Assembly: GCF_012910785.2 (NCBI RefSeq) | Contig: NZ_WTVH02000010.1 | Span: 930,001-994,000, forward strand | Origin: Aromatoleum buckelii | GTDB taxonomy: Bacteria; Pseudomonadota; Gammaproteobacteria; Burkholderiales; Rhodocyclaceae | DNA: 64,000 nucleotides | Direction: 5' to 3' | Made by a program: the position numbers and the translations under genes | Notes under the pieces: model-generated | What the model was told of the DNA's origin: nothing | Seen by the model: the letters and a program-made list of their open reading frames with translations, nothing else | Databases searched by the model: none | Shown here: piece by piece, positions 10,885 through 41,140 of the stretch | How the letters are laid out: the number at the start of each line of letters is the position of its first letter | How positions within the stretch are numbered: position 1 is the first letter of the stretch

Positions 10885-10936
10885 TTCGGAAATTGCTGCT
10901 TCGCTGCCGGGAACGCAGTGTCAAGATCGACAGGAG

Positions 10937-11716
10937 CTAGAATTGGCCCTGCGTCGTGCGCAGCTTCTCGATATCCGGGATGTGAATCGTGCGTCCCTCG
11001 ACACAGATTAACCCGGCTTCAATGAGTTCGTGCAGGATGCGGGAGAAATGTTCCTGGGTGAGGTTCAGGCGCGATGCGATCGTGCCTTTGCTGGTCGGGA
11101 GGCGCACCGACACGTAACCGCTAGTCCTCGGCTCGCCGTCGATTTCCTCCTGGCGCAGGAGGTAGCCAACGATGCGCTCGCGCCCGGAGCGCAGCGAGTA
11201 GGTCTCGACGTCGGCGATCAGGTGGTGCAGGCGGTGCGACAGACCGGCAATGATCTTGCGACAGAACACCGGATCGCGGTCCATCTCGTCGAACACGACA
11301 CTCTTCGAGATGTGCAGCAGCTTGCAGTCGGTCAGCGCCTGGGCCATCACGACGTAGGGCTTGTCCATGAACATCACCGCCTCGCCGAACGTCTGGCCCG
11401 GAAGGATGATCTCGATGACTTTCTCGTGCCCCTCGGCGGACGTGAAAGCGAGCTTGACCTGGCCGGCCAGCACCAGGTGGAAGCCGTGGCAGGGGTCGCC
11501 CTTGTGGAAAACCACGCAGCCCCTGTCCACGTTCTGCTCGCGCACGCCGTGAGCGAAGCGGGCGATCTCGGCGGGACTGAAACCGCTGAGGAGCGGCACG
11601 TGCACGAGCAGCCTGCACAGGCGGTCGGTCTCGGCGTGCTCTTGCCCGCTCGGGGAACACGCGGTGGAAGAGACGGGTTCGCTTCGGGTTCCGGGCGAAC
11701 AGGCAATACGCGGCAT
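10937..11716 (-). CDS. dnr: Crp/Fnr-family regulator, Dnr/NnrR-like
   Basis: A 259-aa transcription factor with an N-terminal cyclic-nucleotide-binding-type sensor domain (HLVLAGQVKL, PGQTFGEAVMF), a long dimerisation helix and a C-terminal helix-turn-helix (TIASRLNLTQEHFSRILHEL). It lacks the N-terminal cysteine cluster of Fnr, which fits the NO-responsive Dnr subgroup. The ATG lies 2 bp after the norD stop, so it is translationally linked to the nor genes that it probably controls. Matching TTGAT-N4-ATCAA-like boxes stand before norC and norE. The long open frame upstream belongs to an antisense-frame shadow of norD. Confidence 0.88.
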   Translation of the reverse strand: MPRIACSPGTRSEPVSSTACSPSGQEHAETDRLCRLLVHVPLLSGFSPAEIARFAHGVREQNVDRGCVVFHKGDPCHGFHLVLAGQVKLAFTSAEGHEKVIEIILPGQTFGEAVMFMDKPYVVMAQALTDCKLLHISKSVVFDEMDRDPVFCRKIIAGLSHRLHHLIADVETYSLRSGRERIVGYLLRQEEIDGEPRTSGYVSVRLPTSKGTIASRLNLTQEHFSRILHELIEAGLICVEGRTIHIPDIEKLRTTQGQF

Positions 11717-11718
11717 GA

Positions 11719-13584
11719 TTACCGTGTCAGTTGAGCGTAGAACAGCGGAAGTCGCGCCGGCAACTCCTCGGGCTTGCGAATCACCGCGTAACCGGCCGGG
11801 CCGAAGAGGTGCGGCAGGTAACCCGCGCCCTCGCGGTCGATTGTGACACAGAACGGGACGAGGCCCTGTTTGCGCGCTTCGCCGACGGCGACGCGAGTGT
11901 CCTCGATGCCGTAGCGTCCTTCGTACAGATCGAGATCGTTCGGCTTGCCGTCGGACAGGATCAGCAGGATGCGCCGCGCGGCCTGTTCGGCTGCGAGCAA
12001 CTGGCTTGTGCGCCGGATTGCCGCCCCCAGCCGCGTGTAGTAGCCCGGCTTGATCGCGCTGATGCGCCCACGGATGCGATCGTCGAAGCGGTCGTTGAAG
12101 TCTTTCAGCCGATGGAAGCGGACCTGGCTGCGCTTGACCGACGAGAATCCGGCCATTGCGAAGCGATCGCCCGTCGCTCCGAGCGCCTCGCCGAACAGCA
12201 GCAGCGCGTCGCGGATGACGTCGATGACGCGCGCTTCGCTCGATACCCAGCTGTCGGTCGACAGCGACAGATCGGCGAGCACCATGCAGGCCAGATCGCG
12301 TTCGCGTTTTTCGAGCGACAGATAAAGCTGGTCGGACGGATTGCGCCCGACCGCCCGGTCGGTCTGGGCGCGGACCACCGCGTCGAGGTCGAGTTCGGTG
12401 CCGTCGGGGCGCGCCTTCAGCCAGCGCCGGCCGGGCTGCAGCGCGGCGAACTGCTGGTGCAGTCGTCGCGCGGTGCGCCGCAGCGGTTCGGGCAGCGGGC
12501 AGGGTGGGGCGTCGCGGGCGGCGAGCTCGGCCAGACGCACGTGATCCTGCAGCAACACGCCTTTGCGGTAGTCCCATTCCGGCAGCGGGATGCCGGCGCC
12601 GAGCACGATGTCGTCCTCGGCTGCCGAAGGGAGGTCGAGATCGAAGCGCACTTTCGACGCGACGCGGTCCGTGTCTTGCGCGAGCGACAAGTGATCGAGG
12701 TCGCGGGCGGCGCTGGCGGCATTCGGGTCCGGCTCGTCGTCGGTGGGCCGGTTGACCCGCAGGAACTCGGCGACCGCAAGCAGGCTTTCGGCGCGGAAGA
12801 AGATCAGCAGGCCGTTCTTTTCCTGCGGCATGTCGACCTGCTCCGCACGGTGGGCGTGGCGCTCGTTTTCATCGAACGACGGCGGCCCGCCGTCGGCGGT
12901 CTGCTCGGGGTCGGCGCCGGTGTTGCGGCGGCTCGCGGCGGTGCCGGACAGGGAACCGGTGAGCCACAGCAATACCGGCTGCGCGGGGGGTGTTCCGGCT
13001 GGGACCGGCGGCAGCGCGCGGACGGTGCCGGGCGCTTCGAGCGCTTGGCGAATCGCACGTTCGCGTTCGGCCTCGGCCGCAGGGAGTTTCTCGGGACGCG
13101 GGCGCGTCGGCAGATAGGCCGCGACGAGGCGCCGGTAGCGCGGTTCGATCCCTGGCCACATGTGCAGCGCCGCGCAGGTCGCGAACTGGTTGCAGCGGAA
13201 ATCGTTGTCGGCCGCGTCCGGCCCATCCGCTTCGATACCGCCGTGCGCGGCGGCGAGCGCGGCGAGCCACAGGTAGAGGTCGCGGTTCAGCGAGCGCTCG
13301 GGAAAGGCGTCGATCTCCGGCGGCAGCCGCAGCGTCGAGGCGTCCATGCGTGCCCGGGCGGCCCGCTCGCCGGCGCCCGCGATGCGTTTCAGCAGGCTGC
13401 GCCGCGCGCCATGTTCGTCCTCGGTTGCAGCGGCGACGCGCAGGCCGGGATCGCCGCCGAGGGCGCGGAAGAACACGCCGGCGGTGCGCTCGATCTCCTT
13501 CAGCTTAACGACAGCTTCGGGATGATTGCCCAGCGCCGTGCGGGTGACCCAGCGGTGCCAGAGTTTGCCAACGGCTTCTTCCAT
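11719..13584 (-). CDS. norD: Nitric oxide reductase activation protein NorD
   Basis: A 621-aa cytoplasmic protein with a C-terminal von Willebrand A domain. The metal-dependent adhesion site DLSLSTDS starts the domain (about residue 425), and FSDGKPNDLDLYEGRYG-like sequence (LSDGKPNDLDLYEG) follows. With the AAA protein NorQ it forms a chaperone pair for assembling the NO reductase, probably inserting non-haem iron. The start at 13584 is preferred, since it follows GGAACGCTAGG and gives the family N-terminus. It sits 1 bp after the polyferredoxin gene and 2 bp before dnr. Confidence 0.93.
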   Translation of the reverse strand: MEEAVGKLWHRWVTRTALGNHPEAVVKLKEIERTAGVFFRALGGDPGLRVAAATEDEHGARRSLLKRIAGAGERAARARMDASTLRLPPEIDAFPERSLNRDLYLWLAALAAAHGGIEADGPDAADNDFRCNQFATCAALHMWPGIEPRYRRLVAAYLPTRPRPEKLPAAEAERERAIRQALEAPGTVRALPPVPAGTPPAQPVLLWLTGSLSGTAASRRNTGADPEQTADGGPPSFDENERHAHRAEQVDMPQEKNGLLIFFRAESLLAVAEFLRVNRPTDDEPDPNAASAARDLDHLSLAQDTDRVASKVRFDLDLPSAAEDDIVLGAGIPLPEWDYRKGVLLQDHVRLAELAARDAPPCPLPEPLRRTARRLHQQFAALQPGRRWLKARPDGTELDLDAVVRAQTDRAVGRNPSDQLYLSLEKRERDLACMVLADLSLSTDSWVSSEARVIDVIRDALLLFGEALGATGDRFAMAGFSSVKRSQVRFHRLKDFNDRFDDRIRGRISAIKPGYYTRLGAAIRRTSQLLAAEQAARRILLILSDGKPNDLDLYEGRYGIEDTRVAVGEARKQGLVPFCVTIDREGAGYLPHLFGPAGYAVIRKPEELPARLPLFYAQLTR

Positions 13585-25132: not shown

Positions 25133-25381
25133 GATGCGTCTCCAAGGTGGCGGGGCAAGGGGCCGCAATTCTATCAGCCCGGGGCCGGATGCGTGCTGCA
25201 GTGCAGGAAGAGACCGGATTCGCGGCCTCCGCAGGGCGTGTAAGTCCTGTGTAAGATAGCTGCTCTTAAATGCGCAGCAGATCGCGGAGCCTTCCGCGAA
25301 CGACAATACAGGCTGGAACCCACCGGCCGCCCCCGCAACAGGGCAGCTTCAACCATTCAGAACAGTTGAGGAGAGGTGAAT

Positions 25382-27361
25382 ATGTCGAACGAGCAGCAGA
25401 CCCAGACGCGCATCTACAAGCCTTCGGAAGAGATGGTCAAGAACGCCGCGGTTTCCGGCATGGAAGCCTATCTTGCGTTGTGCAAGGAAGCGGAAGACGA
25501 CTACGAAGGATTCTGGGCGCGCAACGCCCGCGAACTGATCGAGTGGAAGAAGCCTTTCACCCAGGTCCTCGACGAGAGCAATGCGCCGTTCTTCAAGTGG
25601 TTCGCCGACGGCCAGCTGAACGTCTCCTACAACTGCCTCGACCGCAACGTCAATAACGGTCTCGGCGACAAGGTCGCGATCATTTTCGAAGCCGACAACG
25701 GCGAAGTCACCCGCGTCACCTACAAGGATCTTCTCGCCCGCGTCAGCAGGTTCGCGAACGCGCTGCGCGGCATGGGGGTCAAGAAGGGCGACCGCGTCGT
25801 CATCTACCTGCCGATGTCGATCGAAGGCGTCGTCGCGATGCAGGCGTGCGCCCGGATAGGCGCGACCCACTCGATCGTGTTCGGCGGCTTCTCGGCGCAG
25901 GCGCTGCGTGACCGCATCAACGACGCCGGCGCCGTCGCGCTGATCACGTCCGACGGTCAGCACCGCGGCGGCAAGGCGCTGCCGCTCAAGCCGATCGCCG
26001 ACGAAGCGCTGTCGCTCGGCGGCTGCGAATCGATCCGCAACGTCATCGTCGTCAAGCGCACCGGTGCGCAAACGGCGATGGAAGCGGGCCGCGACCAGTG
26101 GTTCCACGACGTCTGCGCGAACCAGTCGGACACTTGCGAGCCGGAATGGGTCGATGCCGAGCATCCGCTGTTCCTGCTCTACACGTCGGGTTCGACCGGC
26201 AAGCCGAAAGGTGTCCAGCACTCGACCGGCGGCTATCTGCTGCACGCGATCATGTCGATGAAGTACACCTTCGACATCAAGCCGGACGACGTCTTCTGGT
26301 GCACCGCCGACATCGGCTGGGTCACCGGTCACACCTTCATCACCTACGGCCCGCTCGCCTGCGGCACGACCGAGATCGTGTTCGAAGGGGTGCCGACCTA
26401 CCCGGACGCCGGGCGTTTCTGGAAGATGATCCAGGACCACAAGGTCACGGTGTTCTACACCGCCCCGACCGCGATCCGTTCGCTGATCAAGGCCGCGGAC
26501 AACAACCCCGACGTGCATCCGAAGAAATACGACCTGTCGAGCCTGCGCATCCTCGGCTCGGTCGGCGAGCCGATCAACCCGGCCGCCTGGGAGTGGTACC
26601 ACGAGAACGTCGGCGGCGGGCGCTGCCCGATTGTCGATACTTTCTGGCAGACCGAGACCGGCGCGCACATGATCACGCCGATGCCGGGTGCGACGCCGCT
26701 GGTGCCGGGTTCGTGCACGTTGCCGTTCCCGGGCATCCAGTGCGCGGTCGTCGATGAGACCGGCACCGAAGTGCCGAACGGGCAGGGCGGCATCCTCGTC
26801 GTCAAGCGTCCGTGGCCGTCGATGATCCGCACCATATGGGGCGATCCGGAGCGTTTCAAGAAGTCGTATTACCCGGACGACTTCAAGGGCAAGCTGTATC
26901 TCGCCGGCGACGGCGCGATCCGCGACAAGGACACCGGCTACTTCACGATCACCGGCCGCATCGACGACGTGCTGAACGTCTCCGGCCACCGCATGGGCAC
27001 GATGGAGATCGAGTCCGCGCTGGTTGCGCACGAAAAAGTTGCGGAAGCGGCAGTCGTCGGCCGTCCGGACGACCTGACCGGCGAGGCGATCGTCGCGTTC
27101 GTCGTGCTGAAGGGCGCGCGCCCGAGCGGCGAAGAGGCGAAGGCGATCATCAAGGAACTGCAGAACTGGGTCGGCCACGAGATCGGCCCGATCGCCAAGC
27201 CCAAGGACATCCGTTTCGGCGAGAACCTGCCAAAGACCCGTTCGGGCAAGATCATGCGCCGGCTGCTGCGTCAGCTGGCGAAGGGGGAGGAGATCACCCA
27301 GGACACGTCGACCCTCGAGAATCCGGCGATTCTGGATCAGCTTGGCCAGCCGCTGAGCTGA
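25382..27361 (+). CDS. acsA: Acetyl-CoA synthetase (AMP-forming)
   Basis: A 659-aa enzyme activating acetate to acetyl-CoA with ATP. The core AMP-binding motif [32 protein letters not shown] and the C-terminal [14 protein letters not shown], whose lysine is the usual acetylation target, are all present. The length agrees with Acs. The ATG at 25382 is preferred over the GTG two codons earlier; GGAGAGG lies just before. It is followed by a strong terminator and then by the sensor-kinase locus, which suggests that the downstream system governs acetate use. Confidence 0.95.
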
Positions 27362-27560: not shown

Positions 27561-27758
27561 ATGCGCAAGGGTCTTGCCGGACAGCGGCTGGTGGCGGTTT
27601 TCCTGACCGGCGTGCTGCTGTTCAACTATCCGGTGCTTTCACTGTTCGACCGGCCGGAGCCTTTTCTCGGCCTGCCGACGCTGTGGGTTTTCCTGTTCGG
27701 CATCTGGGCGCTGCTGCTGGTCGCAGTCGCGTGGATCGTCGAGCGTGGCGCACGCTGA
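27561..27758 (+). CDS. Small two-helix membrane protein
   Basis: A 65-aa protein with two transmembrane helices (about 10-26 and 40-60) and a conserved-looking LFNYPVLSLFDRPEPFLGLP loop. GAGGAG lies just before the ATG at 27561. It ends 11 bp before the symporter-kinase hybrid, so it is probably a partner subunit of that protein, much like the small subunits that accompany some sodium:solute symporters. No family name can be assigned with certainty. Confidence 0.7.
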   Translation: MRKGLAGQRLVAVFLTGVLLFNYPVLSLFDRPEPFLGLPTLWVFLFGIWALLLVAVAWIVERGAR

Positions 27759-27769
27759 GGATCGGCCGC

Positions 27770-30526
27770 ATGCTCACCGGCACTGTCGTCGTCGCTGTCT
27801 CGTTCGCCTACCTGCTGCTCCTTTTCGCCGTCGCCTATTTCGCTGATCGCCGCGCGGAGCAGGGGCGCTCGGTGATCTCGAATCCGTGGACCTACGCGCT
27901 ATCGCTCGGAGTGTATTGCACGGCGTGGACCTATTTCGGCAGCGTCGGTCGCGCGGCTTCCGGCGGCGTGTGGTTCCTGCCGATCTATCTCGGCCCGACG
28001 CTGGCGATGACCGTGTCGTGGATCGTGATGCTGAAGATGATCCGCATCGCCAAAACCTACCGCATCACGTCGATCGCCGACTTCATCGCCAGCCGCTACG
28101 GCAAGAGCCATCTGCTCGGCGGGCTGGTCACGATCATCGCGGTGGTCGGGATGGTCCCGTACATCGCGCTGCAGCTGAAGGCGATTTCGAGCGGCTACGC
28201 AGTGCTCACCGGGGAGCGCGACGGGCAGTTCCTTGCGCTCGCCCGCGGCAGCTGGGTCGGCGACAGCACGCTGTACGTCGCGCTGACGCTTGCGGTGTTC
28301 ACCGTCCTGTTCGGCGCGCGCCACCTCGATGCGACCGAGCGGCACGAAGGCATGGTCGCGGCGATCGCGTTCGAATCGGTCGTCAAGCTGCTCGCGTTTC
28401 TGGTCCTCGGCGTGTTCGTCACGTACGGCATGTACGACGGTTTCGGCGATCTCTTCACGCGCGCATTCGCCCACCCCGAGCTCGCCGGGCTCCTCACCGT
28501 CGAAAGCGCCAGCGGCGCCGGCTATGGCGGCTGGTTCACGCTGACCCTGCTGGCGATGCTGTCGGTGATTTTCCTGCCGCGGCAGTTCCAGGTCATGGTG
28601 GTCGAAAACGTGAACGAACAGCACCTGCGCCGCGCGACCTGGCTGTTCCCGACGTATCTGTTCCTGATCAACATCTTCGTGCTGCCGATCGCGCTCGGCG
28701 GGCTGCTGTTTTTCGGTCGCGGCATGGTCGACCCCGACACTTTCGTGCTGTCGCTGCCGCTCGCCCATGGTCACAGCGCGCTGGCGCTGCTCGCGTTTGT
28801 CGGCGGACTGTCCGCCGCGACCGGAATGGTCATCGTCGAGACGATCGCGGTGTCGACGATGGTATGCAACGATCTCGTGATGCCGCTCGTGCTGCGCAGC
28901 CGCAGCTTCAACCGTACGGCGCACGGCGATCTTACCGGCCTGCTGCTGGGAATCCGGCGCGGCGCGATCCTGGCGGTGCTGCTGCTCGGTTATCTGTATT
29001 TCCGCCTCGCCGGCGAAGCCTATGCGCTGGTCAGCATCGGCTTGATCAGCTTCGCCGCGGTCGCGCAGTTCGCCCCCGTGATGCTCGGTGGAATGTACTG
29101 GCGCGGCGGCACGCGCGAAGGAGCACTGGCCGGACTGCTCGCCGGTTTCGTCGTCTGGGCCTATACGCTGATGCTGCCGTCGGTGGCGAAATCCGGGTGG
29201 CTCGATCCGACGTTCCTCGAACACGGCCTGTTCGGCATCGCGCTCCTCAGGCCCGAGCAGTTGTTCGGACTGCAGGGGCTCGACAACATCAGCCATGCAC
29301 TGTTCTGGAGCCTCGCGGCAAACATCGCCTGCTATCTTTTCGTCTCGCTGCTGCGCGCGCCGACCGGGCAGGAGGCGAGCCAGGCGACGCTTTTCGTCGA
29401 TGTCTTCCGGCGCGGCCGCACGTCCCCGGCGATGTTCTGGCGCGGCAGCGCGCAGGTGCGGGATCTCCTGCCGCTGGTGGCGCGCTTTCTCGGCACCGCC
29501 CGAGCGGAGCGCGCTTTCACCGACTACGCCCGCCAGCGCGGGTTCAGCGGCATCCCACAGATCCAGCCCGATGCCGGGCTCGTGCAGTTCGCCGAGACGC
29601 AACTCGCCGGTGCGATCGGCAGCGCGTCCGCGCGCGTCATGGTGGCGTCGGTCGTGCAGGAGGAGCCGCTGGGACTCGACGAAGTGATGGACATCCTCGA
29701 CGAGGCCTCGCAGGTGCGCGCGTACTCGCACGAACTCGAGGAGAAGTCGCGGGCGCTCGAAGCGGCCACTGCCGAACTGCGGGCGGCCAACGAGCGGCTG
29801 AAGGAACTCGACCGGCTCAAGGACGACTTCATGTCGTCGGTGTCGCATGAACTGCGCACGCCGCTGACGTCGATCCGCGCATTCTCCGAAATGCTGCTCG
29901 ACGATCCCGACATCGCCGTCCCGGACCGGATGCGATTTCTCGGCATCATCGTGTCCGAAACCGAGCGCCTCACGCGCCTCGTGAACCAGGTGCTCGACCT
30001 GGCGAAGATCGAGTCCGGCCATGCGGAGTGGCACAACAGCGACATCGACATGCGCGCCCTCGTCGAGCAGGCCGTCGACACCACGGCCCAGCTGTTCCGC
30101 GACCGCGGCGCAACGGTCGAGCTGGTGCTGCCGGACGAAGCGCCGCACCTGAAGGCGGACCACGACCGGCTGGTGCAGGTGATGCTGAACCTGCTGTCGA
30201 ACGCGGCGAAGTTCGTGCCGCAGGGGGCGGGCCGCATCCGCGTCGCGCTGACGTCCGAAGCCGGGCAGGTGCGCGTCGAGGTGTCGGACAACGGGCCGGG
30301 CATCCCGCCGGAGCTGCACGGCGTGATATTCGAGAAGTTCCGGCAGGGTGGAGACGAGCGTTCGCGGCCGCAGGGCACCGGCCTCGGGCTGCCCATCAGC
30401 CGTCAGATCGTCGAGCATTTCGGCGGGCGGCTATGGGTGGAATCGTCGCCGGGGCGGGGCACGGTATTTACGTTCGTGCTGCCGCTGCACGCTCCCCATC
30501 CCGACGCGGTGGCTGTCGTGCAATGA
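27770..30526 (+). CDS. Sodium:solute symporter-histidine kinase hybrid (CrbS/CbrA-like)
   Basis: A 918-aa inner-membrane sensor. Residues 1 to about 560 form a 13-helix SSS transporter module (ALSLGVYCTAWTYFGSVGRA, RHLDATERHEGM), followed by a coiled linker, the phosphoacceptor box FMSSVSHELRTPLTSIR, the N box VMLNLLSNAAKF and the G boxes VSDNGPGIP and GTGLGLPI. Related hybrids are CrbS, MxtR and CbrA; CrbS controls acs in vibrios. Its place right after acsA supports acetate or carboxylate sensing. The partner receiver follows 29 bp downstream. Confidence 0.9.
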   Translation: MLTGTVVVAVSFAYLLLLFAVAYFADRRAEQGRSVISNPWTYALSLGVYCTAWTYFGSVGRAASGGVWFLPIYLGPTLAMTVSWIVMLKMIRIAKTYRITSIADFIASRYGKSHLLGGLVTIIAVVGMVPYIALQLKAISSGYAVLTGERDGQFLALARGSWVGDSTLYVALTLAVFTVLFGARHLDATERHEGMVAAIAFESVVKLLAFLVLGVFVTYGMYDGFGDLFTRAFAHPELAGLLTVESASGAGYGGWFTLTLLAMLSVIFLPRQFQVMVVENVNEQHLRRATWLFPTYLFLINIFVLPIALGGLLFFGRGMVDPDTFVLSLPLAHGHSALALLAFVGGLSAATGMVIVETIAVSTMVCNDLVMPLVLRSRSFNRTAHGDLTGLLLGIRRGAILAVLLLGYLYFRLAGEAYALVSIGLISFAAVAQFAPVMLGGMYWRGGTREGALAGLLAGFVVWAYTLMLPSVAKSGWLDPTFLEHGLFGIALLRPEQLFGLQGLDNISHALFWSLAANIACYLFVSLLRAPTGQEASQATLFVDVFRRGRTSPAMFWRGSAQVRDLLPLVARFLGTARAERAFTDYARQRGFSGIPQIQPDAGLVQFAETQLAGAIGSASARVMVASVVQEEPLGLDEVMDILDEASQVRAYSHELEEKSRALEAATAELRAANERLKELDRLKDDFMSSVSHELRTPLTSIRAFSEMLLDDPDIAVPDRMRFLGIIVSETERLTRLVNQVLDLAKIESGHAEWHNSDIDMRALVEQAVDTTAQLFRDRGATVELVLPDEAPHLKADHDRLVQVMLNLLSNAAKFVPQGAGRIRVALTSEAGQVRVEVSDNGPGIPPELHGVIFEKFRQGGDERSRPQGTGLGLPISRQIVEHFGGRLWVESSPGRGTVFTFVLPLHAPHPDAVAVVQ

Positions 30527-30555: not shown

Positions 30556-30927
30556 ATGGCCAAAAAGATACTGATCGCCGACGACGAACAGAACATCGTC
30601 ATTTCGCTCGAATTCCTGATGAAGCGCGAAGGATATGAGGTTTCGATCGCCACCGATGGCGAGGAGGCCGTCGCGCGAATTCGCGCCGAGTTGCCCGACT
30701 TGGTGCTGCTCGACGTGATGATGCCGAAGAAAAGCGGGTTCGAGGTGTGCCAGGAAATCAAGGCCGATCCCGACCTGCAGTCGGTGCGCATCCTGATGCT
30801 GACGGCAAAAGGGCGCGACGCTGAGGTTGCCAAGGGGCTGGCGCTGGGGGCCGACGCCTACATGACCAAGCCGTTCTCGACGAAGGAGTTGGTGGAACGC
30901 GTGCGCAGCATGCTCGCGGCGGGCTGA
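30556..30927 (+). CDS. Single-domain response regulator (receiver only)
   Basis: A 123-aa CheY-like receiver: ADDEQN acidic pair, phosphoacceptor Asp in LVLLDVMMPKKSG, switch Thr in LMLTAKG and Lys in YMTKPFS. There is no output domain, so it must signal by protein contact or phosphotransfer. In related CrbS/CrbR systems the regulator carries a DNA-binding domain; here that domain is missing or encoded elsewhere. It ends 3 bp before the sensor-exonuclease gene, so the three genes form one operon. Confidence 0.9.
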   Translation: MAKKILIADDEQNIVISLEFLMKREGYEVSIATDGEEAVARIRAELPDLVLLDVMMPKKSGFEVCQEIKADPDLQSVRILMLTAKGRDAEVAKGLALGADAYMTKPFSTKELVERVRSMLAAG

Positions 30928-30930
30928 CGG

Positions 30931-33099
30931 ATGACGGCACGCAGGCGTTTCCTGCTGGCGGTGATCGTCCTGGCGTTGCTGATGACCGGCCCGTTCGTCG
31001 TCACCGCACTGCTGGTCTGGCTGGAGACGAGGGAAGGCAGCAGGGAACTGCTGATCGACGTGATCGCACCGCACCTGCCGCTGGGGGCGCTGATGACCCT
31101 GATGGGATTCGTCATGGGCATCGCCGTGCTGCGCAACCTTTTTCGGCGCTACGTGCAGGGCCTTCTGACGATGGGGGAGAACCTCAACCTGATGCTCGGC
31201 GCGAATCGCGAGTTCCGCGTCAAGGAGGACGGGCCGCCGGAAGTGAGGGCGCTGGCGCGCTACGTCAACGCCCTGGCCGAACAGCGCGACGCGCTGCTGC
31301 AGGACGTCGAGGCGCAGATCGCGCGAGCGAAGGAGTCGCTCGAGGAAGAGAAGAATCGCCTCGCCGCGCTGATGTCCGAGCTGACGCAAAGCGTGCTCGT
31401 CTGCAACCTCGACGGACGCATCCTGCTCTACAACAACCGTGCGCGCACGCAGTTCCGCTCGCTGTCGCAGGCCCCGACGGTGGCGAACGGCGGCGAGCTG
31501 ATCGGGCTCGGGCGTTCGATCTACGGCGTGTTCGACCGCAACCTGATCAGCCACGCGCTCGAGAGCATCCAGCATCGGCTGCAGCGCAGCAACGTGCAGC
31601 CGGTGGCGAAGTTCGTCACCACGACGCGTGCCGGCCACCTGCTGCGGGCGCAGATGGCGCCGGTGCTGTCGGTGGCGCAAGAGGGCGTCGCCGAGCGCAG
31701 CATGACCGGGTTCATCCTGATGCTCGACGACATCACGCGCAATTTCGAGAACGAATCCCGCCGCGACCAGATGCTGCACACGCTGACCGAGGGCAACCGG
31801 GCGGCGCTGGCGAACGTGCGGGCAGCGGCGGAAATGCTCGACTACCCCGATCTGCAGAGCGAGCTGCAGGAGCGGTTTCGCAAGGTCATTCGCGACGAGG
31901 TCCGCGCGATGAGCCGGCGTCTCGACGAAACCGCGAACGAGTTCGCCGATGCGCTGAAGGCGCGCTGGCCGCTCGAGGAGATGCTGGGCGCGGACCTCGT
32001 CGCCGCGGCGCAGCGGCGCATCGTCAAGGTGCTGAAGGTGCCGGCCAAGCTCGAGGAGGTCGACGAGTCGCTGTGGGTGAAAGTCGATAGCTTCTCGCTG
32101 CTGCAGGCGCTGACTTACCTCGCGAGCCGGCTGTCCGACGAGTTCGAGATACGCGAAGTGCGTTTCCGGCTGAGCGGGGCGGAGCGCCTGGTGCACCTCG
32201 ACCTGATCTGGTCGGGGCAGGCGATGAGCACCGAGACGGTGATGAGCTGGGAACTCGAGCCGATGCGCTTCGCCGACGAAAGCAGCCCGCTCACCGTGCG
32301 CGACGTCATCGAGCGCAATGACGGCGAGATGTGGCTGGAGCGCGAGAAGGTGCGCCACCGCGCGTTCTTCCGCATCGTGCTGCCGGCCGCGCTGCCGCAG
32401 GAGGAACTCGATCCAGCGGCGTTCCTTCACGGCGAGGCGCGGCCGGAATACTACGATTTCGACCTCTTCAAATGGTCGGAAAAATCACACGCGCTCGAGG
32501 ATCGCCTGCTCAGCGAACTGACCTACACCGTCTTCGACACCGAAACGACCGGGCTCGACCCGTCGAAAGGCGACGAGATCATCCAAATCGGCGCGACGCG
32601 CATCGTCAACGGCAAGCTGCTGCGCCAGGAATCCTTCGAGCAGCTGATCGACCCGGGGCGTGGGCTGTCGCCGGAGTCGGTCAAGATCCACGGCATCACC
32701 CCCGACATGCTCGCCGGGCAGCCGCCGATCGCCAGGGTGCTGCCGGCATTCCACGCGTTCGCGCAGGACACAGTGCTGATCGCGCACAACGCGGCGTTCG
32801 ACATGCGCTTCCTGCAGCTCAAGGAGACCATGACGGGCCTGCGCTTCGACCAGCCGGTGCTCGACACGCTGCTGCTGTCGGCGGTGGTCCATCCGAACCA
32901 GGATTCGCACCGCCTCGAGGCGATCGCGGAGCGCCTCAATCTGACGATCGTCGGTCGGCACACCGCGCTCGGCGACGCCATCGTGACCGCCGAAGTGCTG
33001 CTGAAGCTGATCCCGCTGCTCGCCGAAAAAGGCATCCACACGCTCGGCGAGGCGCGCCGGGCGGCTGAAAAATCGTATTACGCGAGGGTCAAATATTGA
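30931..33099 (+). CDS. Membrane sensor fused to DnaQ-type 3'-5' exonuclease
   Basis: A 722-aa fusion. Two N-terminal transmembrane helices (about 6-31 and 47-70) lead to a HAMP-like helix pair, a PAS-type domain (about 145-270), a helical segment with a kinase-like dimerisation look but no HELRTP box, and a degenerate ATPase-like region (about 340-500). The C-terminal domain (about 530-700) is a DEDDh exonuclease with all motifs: VFDTETTG, AHNAAFDMRF and HTALGDA. The nuclease thus looks active while the kinase half looks inactive. It lies 3 bp after a lone receiver, so phosphorelay input to a nuclease is a possibility. Confidence 0.85.
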   Translation: MTARRRFLLAVIVLALLMTGPFVVTALLVWLETREGSRELLIDVIAPHLPLGALMTLMGFVMGIAVLRNLFRRYVQGLLTMGENLNLMLGANREFRVKEDGPPEVRALARYVNALAEQRDALLQDVEAQIARAKESLEEEKNRLAALMSELTQSVLVCNLDGRILLYNNRARTQFRSLSQAPTVANGGELIGLGRSIYGVFDRNLISHALESIQHRLQRSNVQPVAKFVTTTRAGHLLRAQMAPVLSVAQEGVAERSMTGFILMLDDITRNFENESRRDQMLHTLTEGNRAALANVRAAAEMLDYPDLQSELQERFRKVIRDEVRAMSRRLDETANEFADALKARWPLEEMLGADLVAAAQRRIVKVLKVPAKLEEVDESLWVKVDSFSLLQALTYLASRLSDEFEIREVRFRLSGAERLVHLDLIWSGQAMSTETVMSWELEPMRFADESSPLTVRDVIERNDGEMWLEREKVRHRAFFRIVLPAALPQEELDPAAFLHGEARPEYYDFDLFKWSEKSHALEDRLLSELTYTVFDTETTGLDPSKGDEIIQIGATRIVNGKLLRQESFEQLIDPGRGLSPESVKIHGITPDMLAGQPPIARVLPAFHAFAQDTVLIAHNAAFDMRFLQLKETMTGLRFDQPVLDTLLLSAVVHPNQDSHRLEAIAERLNLTIVGRHTALGDAIVTAEVLLKLIPLLAEKGIHTLGEARRAAEKSYYARVKY

Positions 33100-33169: not shown

Positions 33170-35251
33170 TTGACCACGCAGTCCGCCTTTGGCCGCCGCC
33201 TGCGGCGCTATTACGGCTGGTACACCGGCAGCTTCCTCGCGTTCGTCGGGCTGCTCGCGATCGGCGAACAGTTCGGCATGTCGCCGGGCGTCATCGGGCA
33301 CGTGTTCCTGTTCGCGACGATCGCGATCTATGCCGGCATCGGTGTCATGAGCCGCACCTCCGACGTGTCGGAGTATTACGTTGCCGGCCGGCGCGTTCCG
33401 GCGGTCTTCAACGGCATGGCCACCGCCGCCGACTGGATGAGCGCGGCGTCCTACATCGGCCTGGCCGGCACGCTGTACTTTTCCGGCTTCGAAGGCCTCG
33501 CGTTCGTCACCGGCTGGACGGGCGGCTTCGTTCTCGTCGCGCTGCTGCTCGCGCCCTACCTGCGCAAGTTCGGCCAATACACGATTCCCGACTTCCTCGG
33601 CGCACGCTACGAAGGCAATGTCGCGCGCATCGTCGGTCTCGTCGCGACGGTGCTCGCGAGCTTCGTCTATCTCGTCGCGCAGATCTACGGCGTGGGCCTG
33701 ATCACCAGCCGCTTCGTCAGCGTCGAGTTCGAGATCGGCCTGTTCGTCGGCCTCGCGGGCATCCTCGTCTGTTCGTTCCTCGGCGGCATGCGCGCCGTGA
33801 CATGGACGCAGGTCGCCCAGTACGTGATCCTCATCGTCGCCTACCTCGTGCCGGTGGTGATCCTGTCGTACAAGGTCACCGGCGTGCCGGTTCCCCCGGC
33901 AGTATATGGCAGCGTGCTCGACCGGCTTTCCGCCAAGGAGACCGAGCTGTTCGTCGAGCCGCGCGAAATCGAGGTGCGCGAACGCTTCGGCCAGCGCGCG
34001 GCGGATTACGAGGCGAAGATCGCCGCGCTGCCGGATTCGCTCGAGGAAGAACGGCGCTCGCTGATCGAACGCCTGAACCGGCTGCGCATCGACAATGCCG
34101 CGGCGCGCGAAATCGCGCACGCCGAACGGGCGCTGCGCGATCTGCCGAAGACGCCCGACCAGGCGCGGGCGACGTGGGAGCAGGCGCGCGTCGAGGCCGC
34201 CGCGCGGTCGCGGCCGCCGCCCCGCCACGCCGAAGCCCACCCCGGCGACACGCCGGTGCAAAAGCGCGTCGCGCGCAACAACTTCCTCGCGCTGGTGTTC
34301 GTGCTGATGATCGGCACCGCTGCCTTGCCGCACGTGCTCGTGCGCTACTACACCACGCCGGGAGTCGTGGAGGCGCGGCGCTCGGTGTTCTGGTCGCTGT
34401 TCTTCATCTTCCTGCTGTACGTCACGGCGCCGGCCTACGCGGTGTTCGCGAAGTGGGAGGTGTACAACAACATCATCGGATCGAGTCTTTCGCTGCTGCC
34501 GAACTGGGTGGCCTCGTGGGGCAAGGTCGGGATGGTCGCGATCGAGGACATCAATGGCGACGGCATCCTGCAGCTGGCCGAACTGCGGCTCAACACCGAC
34601 GTGATCCTGCTCGCGACGCCGGAGATCGCCGGCCTGCCGTACGTCGTGTCGGGGCTGGTCGCGGCGGGCGGACTCGCGGCCGCGCTGTCAACTGCGGACG
34701 GGCTGCTGCTGACGATCTCGAACGCGTTGTCGCACGATTTCTATTACAAGGTCGTCAATCCGCGCGCCTCCACGCAGCGCCGGCTCGTGATCGCGAAATC
34801 CCAGCTGCTCGTCGTCGCGGTGATTGCGGCGTGGGTCGCATCGATGCGCCCCGACAACATCCTGTTCATGGTCGGCCTCGCGTTCTCGATTGCCGCCGCC
34901 GCGTTCTTTCCCGCGCTGGTGCTGGGAATCTTCTGGAAGCGGGCGAACCGCCCCGGAGCGGTTGCCGGCATGCTGGCCGGGCTCGTCGTCACGCTGTACT
35001 ACGCGGTGCGCACCCATCCGTTCTTCGGCGGTTCGATGGCACAGGCCTGGTTCGACATCAACCCGATCTCGGCCGGCGTGTTCGGTGTGCCGCTCGGCTT
35101 CGCGACGATCGTGCTGGTGAGCCTGCTGACCCGCCCGCCGTCGCAGGAGATCCAGGATCTCGTCGATTACGTCCGTTATCCACGGCTCCCGGCGGAGGAC
35201 AGCGAGGCGCAGCCGGACTCCGTCGCAGTGCGACGCCGAACTCAGAGCTGA
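33170..35251 (+). CDS. Sodium:solute symporter, VC_2705-like (acetate/lactate permease type)
   Basis: A 693-aa inner-membrane transporter of the SSS family. SEYYVAGRRVPAVFNGMATAADWMSAASYIG and YTIPDFLGARY are strong ActP-like signatures. An insertion of about 120 residues (about 250-370) is charged and coiled-coil-like, and an EF-hand-type loop DINGDGILQLAE (460-471) follows later. Both fit the large-insert VC_2705 subfamily. The start is a TTG at 33170, since no in-frame ATG or GTG is suitable. With acsA and the hybrid kinase it suggests uptake of acetate or another short carboxylate. It overlaps the convergent GntR gene by 10 bp. Confidence 0.85.
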   Translation: MTTQSAFGRRLRRYYGWYTGSFLAFVGLLAIGEQFGMSPGVIGHVFLFATIAIYAGIGVMSRTSDVSEYYVAGRRVPAVFNGMATAADWMSAASYIGLAGTLYFSGFEGLAFVTGWTGGFVLVALLLAPYLRKFGQYTIPDFLGARYEGNVARIVGLVATVLASFVYLVAQIYGVGLITSRFVSVEFEIGLFVGLAGILVCSFLGGMRAVTWTQVAQYVILIVAYLVPVVILSYKVTGVPVPPAVYGSVLDRLSAKETELFVEPREIEVRERFGQRAADYEAKIAALPDSLEEERRSLIERLNRLRIDNAAAREIAHAERALRDLPKTPDQARATWEQARVEAAARSRPPPRHAEAHPGDTPVQKRVARNNFLALVFVLMIGTAALPHVLVRYYTTPGVVEARRSVFWSLFFIFLLYVTAPAYAVFAKWEVYNNIIGSSLSLLPNWVASWGKVGMVAIEDINGDGILQLAELRLNTDVILLATPEIAGLPYVVSGLVAAGGLAAALSTADGLLLTISNALSHDFYYKVVNPRASTQRRLVIAKSQLLVVAVIAAWVASMRPDNILFMVGLAFSIAAAAFFPALVLGIFWKRANRPGAVAGMLAGLVVTLYYAVRTHPFFGGSMAQAWFDINPISAGVFGVPLGFATIVLVSLLTRPPSQEIQDLVDYVRYPRLPAEDSEAQPDSVAVRRRTQS

Positions 35252-36734: not shown

Positions 36735-39700
36735 TTATCGCGGCCCCCCCGAGCCGCGACTGCTGGCCACCAGCCATTCGGCCAGCGCGTCGCCCGGCAT
36801 CGGCCGCGCGTAGTGGTATCCCTGCGCCTCGTCGCAGTTGAAAATGGACAGGAAACGGCCGATGTCCTCGCTTTCGACGCCTTCGGCGATAACCTGCAGC
36901 TTGAGGGTGCGGGCCATGCTGACGATCGCGCGCACGATCGCGGCATCGTCCGGGTCGGTCGCGATGTCGCGGACGAACGACTGGTCGATCTTGAGCTTGT
37001 CGACGGCGAAGCGCTTCAGGTACGCGAGGCTCGAATAGCCGGTGCCGAAGTCGTCGATCGACAGGCGTACGCCGAGCGATTTCAGTCGTCGCAGCGTTTC
37101 GATGACGGATTCCGTGTCGACGAGCAGCAACGACTCGGTCAGTTCGAGTTCTAGTCGCGACGGATCGAGGCCCGACATCGACAGCGCCTGCACGACGCTG
37201 CGTTCGAGATCCCCGCGCTGGAACTGCACGGCCGACAGGTTGACCGCGACGGTCAGCTCCGGCAGGCCCTGCTGCGTCCAGCGCACGGCCTGCATGCACG
37301 CTTCGCGCAGCACCCAGTCGCCGATCGGGACGATCAGGCCGCTGTCTTCCGCTGCCGGGATGAAGCGGCCCGGCGGGACCAGTTCGCGCTTGTCACAGTG
37401 CCAGCGCAGCAAGGCTTCGACACCGACGACACGGCCGCTCGCGAGGTTGATCTGCGGCTGGTAATGCAGCAGGAACTCGTCGTTTTCGAGCGCGCGGTGC
37501 AATGCCGTGCGGATCTGCAGCTGTTCGACGGCGTCTGCGTTCATCTGCTCGGTGTAGAAGCGCCAGGTGTTGCGGCCCGCACGCTTGGCCTGGTACATCG
37601 CGGTGTCGGCGTTCTTCAGCAGCGTGTCGAAATCCTTGCCGTCGTCGGGCCAGATTGCGACGCCGATCGACATCGTGTTCGTCAGCTCATGGCCTTCGAG
37701 TTCGAAGGGGCGGGTCAGCGCGTCGAAAATCTTCGCCGTCGCGCTGTTGATCGCCTGTGGGTGGCGGACATCCGTAAGCGCGATCAGGAACTCGTCGCCG
37801 CCGAGCCGACTCACGGTGTCGGTCTCGCGCAGGCATTCGCGCAGCCGCAGAGCGACCCCTTGCAGCAGCCCGTCGCCGGCAGGATGGCCGAGGGTGTCGT
37901 TGATGGTCTTGAAATGATCGAGGTCGACGAACAGCAGCGCGACTTTTGCGTGCGCGCGCTCCGCCCACGCGGTGGCCAGCGCGAAGCGGTCGCGAAACAG
38001 CACGCGGTTCGGCAATCCGGTGAGCGCATCGTGATGGGCGAGATATTCGATGCGCGCCTGGGCTTCCTTGCGGTCGGTGATGTCGTGCACGAACGTGAGC
38101 ACGTGTTTCTCGCCGTCGATGTCGATGTATTTGGACGACAGGCTGACCTGGCGCACCGCGCCGCTGCGGTCGCACCCGACAGTCTCGAAATCGAGCACCG
38201 AACCGTGCTGCCGGAGCATTTCGAGCCAGCGCTGGCGGCTCTCGGGGTCCGGCCACAGGTTGGCCTCGACCGAAGTCTTGCCGATGAGCTCTTCACGTTT
38301 CCAGCCGAAGTGGATTTCGTACTTGTCGTTCACTTCGATGAAGCATCCGTCCTCGACGCGCGTGATCGCGACTGCGAACGGTGCTGCCGTCATCGCGATC
38401 GAAAATCGTTCTTCGCTGTTGCGCAGCGCGGTTTCGGTGGCGCGCAGCTCGGTAATGTCCTGGATCGCGCCGCACACGCGCACCGCGCGGCCTTCCCGGT
38501 CGTACTGCAGGTGACCGTTCGCGCGCGCAATGCGCAGCGCGCCATCGGCGCGGATGAGGCGGAATTCGCTGACATAGGAACGATTGTTCCGAACCGCGCC
38601 CGCGAGGTCGCCGGCGACGCGCTCGCGGTCGTCCGGATGAACGTGAGCGAGGAAGGTGGCGCCGCTGGGAGTGACCTCGCCCGGCGCGTGGCCGAGGAGG
38701 CGGTCGGTTTGCTCCCCCCAGTGAAGGACGCCGGCGGGGAGCTGCCATTCCCAGTACCCGACGTGCGCCAGCATGGTGGCCTCGGCGAGCTGGCGCCGGC
38801 TCTCCTTGACGGGCGTGATGTCGTGAAAAATCTCGAACTTGCTGAGCGTCCCGTCGGGGTTGCGGAACGGCATCTCGAACAGGTCGTAGCTGCGCCCGCT
38901 GGGCGCCGTCCATTCCGCCTGCACCGACGCGCCCGCGAACACTGCATCGTTGTTGCACCACGTACAGGCTTCGCTGCGGCTATGGAGGTATTCGAAGCAC
39001 TTGCGTCCGGCCGGTGCGCCGAACTGGCGTTCGAGCGCCGGGTTGAAATACTCGATGACGTGATCGGCGCCGACGATGTACGCGCCGTCGGGCAGCGCGT
39101 CGAGAATCCCTTGCAGGCGCGTGCGCTCGGCTGCGAGCACGGCGACTTCGGCCTGTGCGGTCTTGACGCGGCTGATATCCGTATAGGTGAGCACGACGCC
39201 GTCGCGCACGCCGCCCTCGCCGTAAAACGGCAGCATGCGTTCCAGGTACCAGCGGCCGCTGACGTCCACCTCGCGCTCCGCGCCTTCGCCGGTTGCTGCG
39301 ACGTGCTGAAGATCGGCCAGGAAGCGTGACGCGTCCCCGGCGTGGTAGGCGATCTCCGCGAGCGGACGGCCTGCGTCCGAGGCGCGCAACGCGAGAACGT
39401 CTTCGACGGCGGCGCTGAAGCGGCGCACGCGCAGCCCGGCATCGAGAAACACGGTGCCGATTTTCGTGCTCGCGAGCAGGTGGTCGTAGTCGCGGTTCAG
39501 GTTTGCCAGCGCAGCATTGCGGTCTTCGAGTTCGCGGTTGAGGATGTAGAGGTCTTCGTTGACCGACTTCAATTCCTCGTTGGTGCTCTGCAACTCCTCG
39601 TTCGACGCAGTCAGTTCCTCGTTCGCGAGATCGATGTGTTCGTGGCTGCTCTTGAGCTCGACGATCATCTCGTGCAGCCGTTCGCGCGTCGCGAGCAGCT

Positions 39701-40667
39701 CCGCTTCGAGCTCCTCCGGCGTACCTGCGCCATTCCCGGGAAGGACGTCGGGCAGCGTCGACAGCGGGGGAACGAGAATGCTGCACGAGCGGGGCAGCGC
39801 GGCTCCCTGCTTGCGGTAAAGCTTGCTCGAGCGATCGACCGTCATGAACGCGCGCGCCGCGTGTTCGCCGACGGTTTCGCTCGCGCCGAGCATCAGGAGG
39901 CCCTGCGGCTTGAGTGCAAAGTGAAGCTGCGCCAGCGCCTTCAGCTGCGATCCGTTCTGCAGATAGATCAGCAAGTTGCGGCACAGCGCGAGGTCGATGC
40001 GCGTAAAGGGCGGATCGGTCAGCAGGTTGTGGCGGGCAAAGACGACATGGCGCCGCAACGTGCCATCGACGCGCCAGCCCTCGTGCGTGCGCTGGAAATA
40101 GCGCCGCAGCAGCGCTTCGGGGATCCCGCGCACCGCGTCGTCGCGGAAAATTCCCTGCGAGGCGTCGCTCAGCACGCCCGGGTGGATGTCGGTCGCGAAG
40201 ACCTTGACGTCGCCGGTGAAGCCGAAGCGGCCTGCGGCGTCGAGCGCGAGCAGGGCCAGCGTGTAGGCTTCCTCGCCGCTCGCGCATCCGGCCGACCACA
40301 GCCGCAACGGGTCGGACGGATTGCGCCCGCGCAACATGTCCGGGAGCACTTCATCGGCGAGCAGCGAGAATGCGGCCGCATCGCGGAAGAACTCCGTGAC
40401 GTTGATCAGCAGATCGTCGCACAGCGCGTTGCGTTCGACGTCGTCCCGGACGATTTTCTCGTGATACGCGGACACCGTGTCGCAGTCCGTCAGCGTCATG
40501 CGGCGGCTTACGCGGCGCGAAAGCGTGCCGGTCTTGTAGTCCGAAAAATCCACCGCGCAGTGCCGCCGCAGCACGTCGATCACCGCCGCCATGTCCGGGA
40601 GCAACGGGTCGCGCGCAGCGTCTTCCCACTGGGTTTCGGCGCAGGGCCGTTCATCGATGCCATCCAT
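36735..40667 (-). CDS. CheR-PAS-GGDEF-EAL signalling protein
   Basis: A 1310-aa cytoplasmic multidomain protein. Order: CheR-type methyltransferase (about 20-280; LWSAGCASGEEAYTLA, LCRNLLIYL), a long coiled coil (NEELTASNEELQSTNEELKSVNEDL), four PAS/PAC units (about 385-870), a GGDEF cyclase (RLGGDEFLIAL) and an EAL phosphodiesterase (GVEALLRWH) with DDFGTGYSSLAYLKRF. Both catalytic signatures are intact. The CheB domain often found with CheR and this coiled coil is absent. The start at 40667 has GGAGGGG six bases before; a GTG 11 codons upstream is the alternative. Confidence 0.88.
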   Translation of the reverse strand: MDGIDERPCAETQWEDAARDPLLPDMAAVIDVLRRHCAVDFSDYKTGTLSRRVSRRMTLTDCDTVSAYHEKIVRDDVERNALCDDLLINVTEFFRDAAAFSLLADEVLPDMLRGRNPSDPLRLWSAGCASGEEAYTLALLALDAAGRFGFTGDVKVFATDIHPGVLSDASQGIFRDDAVRGIPEALLRRYFQRTHEGWRVDGTLRRHVVFARHNLLTDPPFTRIDLALCRNLLIYLQNGSQLKALAQLHFALKPQGLLMLGASETVGEHAARAFMTVDRSSKLYRKQGAALPRSCSILVPPLSTLPDVLPGNGAGTPEELEAELLATRERLHEMIVELKSSHEHIDLANEELTASNEELQSTNEELKSVNEDLYILNRELEDRNAALANLNRDYDHLLASTKIGTVFLDAGLRVRRFSAAVEDVLALRASDAGRPLAEIAYHAGDASRFLADLQHVAATGEGAEREVDVSGRWYLERMLPFYGEGGVRDGVVLTYTDISRVKTAQAEVAVLAAERTRLQGILDALPDGAYIVGADHVIEYFNPALERQFGAPAGRKCFEYLHSRSEACTWCNNDAVFAGASVQAEWTAPSGRSYDLFEMPFRNPDGTLSKFEIFHDITPVKESRRQLAEATMLAHVGYWEWQLPAGVLHWGEQTDRLLGHAPGEVTPSGATFLAHVHPDDRERVAGDLAGAVRNNRSYVSEFRLIRADGALRIARANGHLQYDREGRAVRVCGAIQDITELRATETALRNSEERFSIAMTAAPFAVAITRVEDGCFIEVNDKYEIHFGWKREELIGKTSVEANLWPDPESRQRWLEMLRQHGSVLDFETVGCDRSGAVRQVSLSSKYIDIDGEKHVLTFVHDITDRKEAQARIEYLAHHDALTGLPNRVLFRDRFALATAWAERAHAKVALLFVDLDHFKTINDTLGHPAGDGLLQGVALRLRECLRETDTVSRLGGDEFLIALTDVRHPQAINSATAKIFDALTRPFELEGHELTNTMSIGVAIWPDDGKDFDTLLKNADTAMYQAKRAGRNTWRFYTEQMNADAVEQLQIRTALHRALENDEFLLHYQPQINLASGRVVGVEALLRWHCDKRELVPPGRFIPAAEDSGLIVPIGDWVLREACMQAVRWTQQGLPELTVAVNLSAVQFQRGDLERSVVQALSMSGLDPSRLELELTESLLLVDTESVIETLRRLKSLGVRLSIDDFGTGYSSLAYLKRFAVDKLKIDQSFVRDIATDPDDAAIVRAIVSMARTLKLQVIAEGVESEDIGRFLSIFNCDEAQGYHYARPMPGDALAEWLVASSRGSGGPR

Positions 40668-41140
40668 GCGCCCCTCCTCGGCATTTTCCGGTTTGCTCAC
40701 GCTCTCGCTCCCGGATCCCGCATCCTGTCCGAGGGATCGCAGTCCCGGGCGGGCGCACGGGGCAGGGCAGGGCCGGGTCCGGCGGTCGGGGCCAAGGGTC
40801 CGGAGACGTGGTCCATGCCAGGTCGATCAACTATTATGCAGAATGGCCTGATGACGGTAATAAAGTGCATTAAATCGTTTCCATCCGGAACGCCACAGTC
40901 GGAATCGGCACTAGTGTGCATTATTTTCCGCACCGGCAACGTTCAGGATTTGGCGTCGGGACGCGTAATCCGGCTTTTTGTCTGCCTGGGCATTTTTCCG
41001 CCGCTCCGGCTGAAACTTTTACAGCAACCCCTTGGGGAGCGTCTGTGGACGCTGCCCGACACCATATAGGCCCCCGTTTTGCTTCTCGGCCCAGGACGGA
41101 GTCACCCGGGCCGTGGCGACGCTGTCGAACGGAGGCCAGA
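40668..41140. other. Divergent intergenic region, 473 bp
   Basis: No gene is seen. The middle (about 40825-40930) is richer in A/T than the surroundings and probably holds promoters for the divergent genes. A small hairpin AGCGTC-TGTG-GACGCT lies at 41038-41053. No clear -35/-10 pair could be selected. Confidence 0.4.

Follow-up and report, generated by a model that had tools for sequence, protein, structure and literature searches.

We found that a single gene in a stretch of Aromatoleum buckelii DNA joins a degenerate histidine kinase to a seemingly intact DEDDh-type 3'-5' exonuclease. The stretch, referred to here as the window, comprises 64,000 nucleotides (NCBI RefSeq assembly GCF_012910785.2, contig NZ_WTVH02000010.1, positions 930,001 to 994,000), and the gene encodes a fusion protein of 722 amino acids at positions 30931 to 33099, as defined by translation, domain scans, and alignment. 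All features are on the forward strand unless stated otherwise. We propose, with a probability of roughly 55%, that the fusion is the output protein of a three-part signaling set linked to acetate or pyruvate, in which docking of a receiver on the pseudokinase switches the membrane exonuclease. According to this model, an SLC5/STAC-type kinase would sense a small monocarboxylate or its metabolic effect, autophosphorylate, and then phosphorylate a lone receiver; intact residues and adjacency of the genes point to the phosphotransfer. The receiver, which has no output domain, would dock on the pseudo-DHp hairpin of the membrane pseudokinase, and the pseudokinase would sense whether the receiver is phosphorylated, in the way that DivL does for DivK~P. 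The C-terminal exonuclease would be switched by docking and the PAS domain together, and it would act in the same pathway as a DUF294 nucleotidyltransferase.

The exonuclease half of the fusion (residues 530 to 699; positions 32518 to 33027) was recognized by profile, fold, and catalytic residues, and it looks alive. RNase_T (PF00929) matched residues 534 to 690 with an E value of 2.3e-35 and 123 bits, against a gathering score of 24. A preliminary description of this DNA had claimed intact DEDDh motifs, and we found D536, E538, D624, H677, and D682 in the window and in 80 of the 83 proteins of our main alignment (82 of 99 full-length homologues plus the window; L022 and L103 were excluded from this and a second alignment). 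D536, E538, and H677 were each present in 97 of the 100 rows of a wider homologue listing. Loss of these residues in orthologues had been named as grounds for doubt, and it was confined to three of the 83 aligned proteins (L104, L105, and L106, from genomes G051, G190, and G295). These three belong to one genus and have kept the transmitter. The exonuclease was also the best-conserved domain, with a mean identity to the window of 53% in 12 distant members, compared with 14 to 35% for the other segments. By NCBIfam, PDB sequence, and Foldseek matches, the domain is PolC/epsilon-like, and the nearest solved structure by sequence was 2p1j, a PolC-type exonuclease domain. In an unrooted tree, 36 exonuclease domains (fused, stand-alone, or in other fusions) formed one side of a branch with support of 96/86, and nine other DnaQ-type paralogues, named by eye without a family scan (including which one is epsilon), formed the other.

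By its sequence motifs, the kinase half of the fusion is dead: the motifs for binding ATP and for taking phosphate are gone. Profile comparison identified residues 276 to 493 as a counterpart of the transmitter of the neighboring kinase (98.5% probability; E=2e-15), with TEGNR in the fusion opposite SHELR and with the N, G1, and G2 boxes replaced. We found no phospho-accepting histidine at the H-box column in any of the 83 rows, which carry glutamate in 54, aspartate in 17, and other residues in 12; the residue in the window is E287. In contrast to what is expected of an active histidine kinase, the fusion thus has neither the histidine nor the ATP boxes, and it has the DHp and catalytic ATP-binding (CA) fold only by prediction. 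An arginine three residues past the acceptor column (R290 in the window) was invariant in all 83 rows, and the HisKA profile still matched 4 of 28 members at E≤0.05. The degenerate kinase region of the preliminary description is therefore borne out by the profile match, by a predicted hairpin and CA-like fold, and by Foldseek matches to WalK and VicK.

We predicted the structure of the fusion with AlphaFold from the 83-row alignment, window included, and recovered the PAS domain, the helical hairpin, the CA-like sandwich, and the exonuclease. Because the mean pLDDT (predicted local distance difference test) was 82 and the pTM (predicted template modeling score) was 0.38, each domain of the model can be used by itself, but the positions of the domains relative to one another cannot. 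The model begins with a hydrophobic helix (residues 3 to 32; positions 30937 to 31026) and a second hydrophobic helix that continues into a HAMP-like region (residues 38 to 90; positions 31042 to 31200), and these two predicted helices suggest that the protein is inserted in the membrane. A long helix (residues 103 to 149) leads to the PAS domain (residues 154 to 267; positions 31390 to 31731), seen as AlphaFold strands. It is followed by the pseudo-DHp hairpin (residues 269 to 343, with arms at 269 to 303 and 310 to 343; positions 31735 to 31959), the degenerate CA domain (residues 349 to 486; positions 31975 to 32388), a flexible stretch (residues 490 to 503), and the exonuclease at about residues 530 to 699. 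The linker ahead of the exonuclease, RPEYYDFDLF (residues 504 to 513; positions 32440 to 32469), is conserved: D509 and F510 are invariant, and R504, P505, E506, Y508, and L512 are each found in at least 90% of the 83 rows. The top Foldseek matches of the model were the sensor kinases WalK and VicK, and those of its C-terminal part were PolC, DinG, and epsilon.

The architecture claimed in the preliminary description held for the PAS domain, the degenerate kinase, the exonuclease, and two predicted hydrophobic helices. The window protein matched PAS_4 weakly (E=0.033), and 23 of the 28 members scanned matched it at E≤0.05. The HAMP part fared worse. It is the weakest element of the architecture, with a profile match in 1 of 28 members (E=0.049) and otherwise predicted helices alone to suggest it; we rejected HAMP as a firm domain and retained the region as HAMP-like. 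The domain order was kept in 25 of 28 aligned members, namely, those with a live exonuclease. We also rejected the idea that the fusion is a chance joining or an artifact: besides the kept order, all of the best 80 loci have, over the match, an open frame of 639 codons or more. The closest named homologue among the matches listed is from Aromatoleum evansii (82%).

The fusion lies in a run of genes ordered acs, a small hydrophobic open reading frame (ORF), kinase, lone receiver, fusion, and symporter. The kinase (positions 27773 to 30526) was assigned to the SLC5/STAC type from sequence and profile matches and has an intact H692 (numbered from 27773), the equivalent of which was invariant in all 19 aligned proteins. 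Its residues 7 to 626 match the 606-amino-acid PDB chain 10ed_A, there called just "histidine kinase" (E=7e-103), and its C-terminal part matches solved kinases. The N-terminal part has a profile match to the window symporter, which agrees with an SLC5-like protein. Pfam SSF gave no match on the window kinase, and the STAC label rests on no STAC-specific model. The kinase ends after its ATPase domain, and the receiver (positions 30556 to 30927) is just 123 amino acids long, with no output domain in the domain scan. Its phosphorylation site, D53, and D9/D10/T83/K105 were invariant in 20 of 20 aligned proteins. As described before, the fusion begins 3 bp behind the receiver, at 30931; the two genes are in the same frame, with a stop codon and one other codon between them.

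The remaining genes of the run are acs (positions 25376 to 27361), named acetyl-CoA synthetase by eye from its sequence without a family scan, and a VC_2705-family sodium/solute symporter (positions 33170 to 35251; TIGR03648, E=4.2e-234). The small ORF (positions 27561 to 27758), of 65 amino acids and hydrophobic in sequence, lies directly upstream of the kinase. A hydrophobic small ORF occupies this position in 98 of 105 loci, a raw count with no chance baseline, and its product may be a small subunit that works with the kinase. Pfam gave no family match for the 65-amino-acid ORF or for its Paracoccus counterpart, PDEN_RS25400. Farther downstream, on the reverse strand (positions 36735 to 40700), is an ORF of 1,321 amino acids that by eye seems to have CheR-type methyltransferase, PAS, GGDEF, and EAL parts.

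We found that the SLC5-type kinase, the lone receiver, and the fusion form a conserved set, often with acs, the symporter, and a DUF294 nucleotidyltransferase. Besides betaproteobacteria, other orders of the GTDB class to which the window belongs have the set, and so do Alphaproteobacteria (Paracoccus denitrificans). Its genes are shuffled between lineages: the nearer relatives of the window have kinase-receiver-fusion, and other lineages have receiver-fusion-kinase. In one locus (L173), acs, symporter, DUF294, receiver, fusion, and kinase all run in the same direction. In P. denitrificans PD1222, DUF294, the small ORF (at the same place as that of the window), kinase, receiver, and fusion are encoded in a row by PDEN_RS25395 to RS25415, with an overlap at every junction; in the record, the fusion gene is labeled just "exonuclease domain-containing protein."

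Kinase and fusion also occurred together across genomes. In a class sample of 369 genomes, 18 had the fusion and 20 the full-length kinase: 15 had both, 5 the kinase only, 3 the fusion only, and 346 neither (Fisher p=7e-20). In an order sample of 200 genomes, 17 had the fusion or a piece of it and 25 the kinase: 14 had both, 11 the kinase only, 3 the fusion only, and 172 neither (p=2e-12). Here and below, Fisher p values are uncorrected for the relatedness of genomes and serve just to order the evidence. The cutoffs were chosen after seeing the tables. A kinase orthologue was a match of >700 bits in the class sample, where the next matches stop at about residue 650 to 680 of mostly longer proteins, and a match at E≤1e-200 in the order sample. 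A fusion was a match over the transmitter and an exonuclease with a live site in the class sample (G266, G051, G190, and G295 were not counted) and any match at E≤1e-80, pieces included (G767, G720, G812, and G745), in the order sample. The claimed link to an SSS-type kinase, a receiver, and acs is supported. We rejected the idea that the fusion strictly requires the kinase, which at these cutoffs was absent in 3 of 18 fusion genomes of the class sample (G093, G214, and G326) and 3 of 17 of the order sample (G628, G793, and G720). The fusion matches in G093 and G720 are on contigs of about 3.2 kb.

The receiver is the close neighbor of the fusion. Among 123 PAS-exonuclease proteins in the fetched loci, 96 had a receiver of at least 35% identity within 8 kb, limits likewise chosen after the tables had been seen; in 94 of them the distance was no more than 400 bp, and in 91 the kinase was present too. 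In the 76 loci with flanks of 7.5 kb or more on each side, we found the receiver in 61, the kinase in 59, DUF294 in 53, the symporter in 48, and acs in 34. Some of the 27 proteins without an adjacent receiver lie at contig ends (L022, L091, L122, L123, and L130). An unlinked fusion in Accumulibacter was considered and set aside: the seven loci concerned are second copies, and kinase, receiver, and fusion are together elsewhere in all seven genomes. Each of these genomes has two fusion genes, one with the kinase and receiver and one alone (L033, L038, L039, L040, L043, L055, and L059 and L151 to L157).

The hairpin was complete in every one of the 96 members with an adjacent receiver; of the 27 members without one, 6 had it cut or absent (Fisher p=7e-5). 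In the genomes of the six hairpin-defective members, the best receiver match was at E=2e-28 or there was none, compared with E≤1.5e-37 in four genomes with the set. A known pseudokinase offers a model for such a pairing. DivL of Caulobacter acts on another kinase. It reads DivK~P, and binding of DivK~P requires its Arg553, which lies three residues past Tyr550, the residue at the canonical phosphotransfer position; its kinase region shares 27% identity with HK853, an active kinase (PMC4211667). Like DivL, the fusion has a PAS domain before a HisKA/CA transmitter without a phospho-accepting histidine, the equivalent of Arg553 is invariant, and the partner is a lone receiver. The fusion thus has both marks of a DivL-like reader, a nonhistidine residue at the acceptor column and an arginine at +3. 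Unlike DivL, it lacks the N and G boxes and carries an exonuclease, and we claim analogy, not orthology. Co-conservation, the hairpin/receiver pattern, and the analogy to DivL taken together suggest that the receiver docks on the dead DHp, and the fusion of the domains suggests that the pseudokinase half controls the exonuclease.

Several observations weigh against this proposal. Docking, switching, and exonuclease activity are all argued from sequence and analogy. An intact hairpin is found in six genomes without such a close receiver (G628, G793, G376, G051, G190, and G295), and the hairpin losses trace to perhaps about three events. R290 is an ordinary H-box residue, and its retention may reflect inherited packing. 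Eight of the 76 long-flank loci have none of the five partner genes at the cutoffs used, although in one of the eight (L175) a more distant receiver (35% identity) adjoins the fusion. Of the kinase genomes, 5 of 20 in the class sample and 11 of 25 in the order sample have no fusion; since the receiver is retained in genomes without the fusion, it must have another target there. Finally, three proteins of about 475 to 500 amino acids (L136, L179, and L180) consist of a membrane region, a PAS-like region, a linker, and the exonuclease, with no transmitter. They lack both hairpin and CA domain, so receiver control is inessential to the exonuclease.

Of the 16 genomes that have the kinase and no fusion, 15 keep the lone receiver beside the kinase; in the other (L188), the receiver is about 5 kb off. 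Thus, kinase and receiver are the core, and the fusion is one likely output. In one locus (L144, positions 10378 to 12257), a DUF294 gene overlaps the end of the receiver gene, at the spot occupied by the fusion elsewhere. In another fusion-less genome (L146), an exonuclease-like stretch is joined to DUF294 in the same locus as the kinase. We rejected the idea that the receiver is fused to other outputs in the long ORFs of L196 and L197. Their extra length lies ahead of the receiver, which is followed by 2 and 11 residues, and we take this length as read-through of a GC-rich frame.

DUF294 is a steadier genomic partner of the fusion than the kinase is. In the class sample, 101 of 369 genomes have a DUF294 gene, comprising all 18 with the fusion and 83 of the 351 others (p=2e-11). 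It was also present in 27 of 29 further genomes with the fusion or a membrane PAS-exonuclease; the two without it (G767 and G720) have a completeness of 85% and 87% and contain just pieces of the fusion. Of 11 kinase-only genomes, 6 have DUF294. In the window genome, the DUF294 gene is located elsewhere, away from the fusion locus. The preliminary description had named, as a further ground for doubt, the finding of the domains as separate genes with no functional link. When it stands alone or in other fusions, the exonuclease keeps to the same company: in L136, L140, L141, L142, L184, and L185 it adjoins DUF294 or forms one protein with it, and some of these loci also have acs or the symporter. 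It is joined to CBS-DUF294 in a single polypeptide in four of these loci (L141, L142, L184, and L185; Pfam scan for L141), and L140 has a stand-alone exonuclease of 217 amino acids near acs. The exonuclease-CBS-DUF294 protein of L184 adjoins a VC_2705-like symporter.

These findings bear on what the exonuclease would act on. The best-placed alternative, tentative and short of even odds, is that it trims or destroys RNA (carbon-metabolism mRNA or tRNA ends) under an acetate signal. Many DEDDh enzymes use RNA as a substrate. We saw no RNA-specific feature in the domain, the nearest solved relatives of which are the DNA enzymes PolC, epsilon, and DinG, and RNA decay leaves the close link to DUF294 unexplained unless the DUF294 nucleotidyltransferase works on RNA. 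Experimental data come from Pseudomonas putida, where pp_0353, which codes for an RNase_T protein, shares an operon with pp_0354, a CBS-domain gene, under MxtR/ErdR (an SSS-kinase regulon). Deletion of pp_0353 delays growth on pyruvate, and the gene is needed for normal growth on pyruvate and not on acetate; Hernandez et al. speculate on mRNA decay (PMC9927547). The protein is probably a stand-alone relative of the fusion exonuclease, going by its description and not its sequence. Both systems tie an RNase_T exonuclease to a CBS-domain protein and an SSS-kinase. The control of pp_0353 is transcriptional, via MxtR/ErdR, however, and the part of the study consulted describes no membrane pseudokinase fusion.

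A less likely alternative, and one we hold doubtful, is a writer-eraser pair, in which a GlnD/GlnE-like DUF294 protein attaches a nucleoside monophosphate (NMP) to an acetate-pathway protein or nucleic acid and the DEDDh domain removes it. Chemically, a tyrosyl-NMP bond resembles the nitrophenyl-thymidine monophosphate ester that epsilon cleaves. Besides the genome counts and the exonuclease-CBS-DUF294 polypeptides given above, all 11 DUF294 proteins that we aligned have the nucleotidyltransferase signature G-S-x-G-R-x-E ... D-Q-D-N without change, and we found no HD domain in the four that were scanned. DUF294 is missing from the three genomes in which the exonuclease is dead (G051, G190, and G295), but these belong to one genus and hence represent one event. 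Modification of the target would follow from the gene pattern only by inference, and DUF294 also occurs without the fusion, in 83 genomes. As far as the available parts of the reports go, deletion of pp_0354 in P. putida did not give the pyruvate phenotype of pp_0353 (PMC9927547), and a mutant of P. fluorescens Pflu5625 (cyclic AMP-binding/CBS/nucleotidyltransferase) had no phenotype (PMC5715377). Like GlnD and GlnE, the DUF294 partner is a nucleotidyltransferase, and its C-terminal domain is in the same Pfam clan, according to the part of the source seen (PMC3710099). Unlike in the GlnD/GlnE system, we saw no link to glutamine synthetase, and the candidate eraser is a DEDDh exonuclease. Given the DUF294 pattern, the pair is an idea as concrete as mRNA decay. 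Less probable again is the whole chain at once, in which a two-component system has a membrane exonuclease as its output through a receiver-reading pseudokinase and the exonuclease erases nucleotide marks placed by DUF294 on a protein (e.g., acetyl-CoA synthetase or the symporter) or on RNA.

The other alternatives fall far behind. Hydrolysis of pGpG or nanoRNA, raised in the preliminary description, is not favored: Orn is itself a DEDDh enzyme, but the domain is PolC/epsilon-like, its steadiest genomic partner is DUF294, and there was no oligoribonuclease among the 25 of 37 NCBIfam matches listed or the 11 PDB matches, which makes an Orn-like role very unlikely. Service in DNA replication or repair is slightly less credible still. 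The fold and the five catalytic residues are those of PolC-type and DNA polymerase III epsilon exonucleases, but the 36 domains lie across the branch from the nine DnaQ-type paralogues, they are found in acetate loci, and here the domain is attached to a regulatory half predicted to be membrane bound. We give least credence to an antiphage defense nuclease, as the PADLOC matches (to DEDDh and PDC-S48 models, in a scan whose neighbors covered the kinase and receiver) are confined to the exonuclease domain and metabolic neighbors are conserved at most loci.

Kinases of the SLC5/STAC type are known from carboxylate and amino acid metabolism, in CrbS/CrbR (MxtR/ErdR), CbrA/CbrB, and RpuS/RpuR (PMC5715377, PMC5436829, PMC9100948, PMC7918813). 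In the available parts of these sources, those systems have DNA-binding response regulators and CrbS is a hybrid kinase. In contrast, the window has the SLC5/STAC kinase with neither a hybrid kinase nor a DNA-binding regulator; the kinase is followed by an output-less receiver and then the pseudokinase-exonuclease. Titles and abstracts in the open-access literature yielded no paper about the fusion, in a search that leaves subscription papers mostly outside its coverage. Each part is of a familiar kind; what looks new is how the parts are combined and how widely the combination occurs.

The presence of the fusion in many Proteobacteria, mostly beside an acetate-linked sensor and a receiver, suggests a two-component signal with a nuclease output. 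The compact single gene run in P. denitrificans, a soil bacterium kept in laboratories, makes genetics feasible. If our proposal is correct, a two-component pathway would end in a nuclease and not in a transcription factor, and a dead kinase would serve as the docking site of a receiver, in at least two proteobacterial classes. The SLC5/STAC kinase with its lone receiver would gain a candidate target, and a mechanism would be on offer for the unexplained pyruvate phenotype of pp_0353 in P. putida. The function of the DUF294 protein would also become testable.

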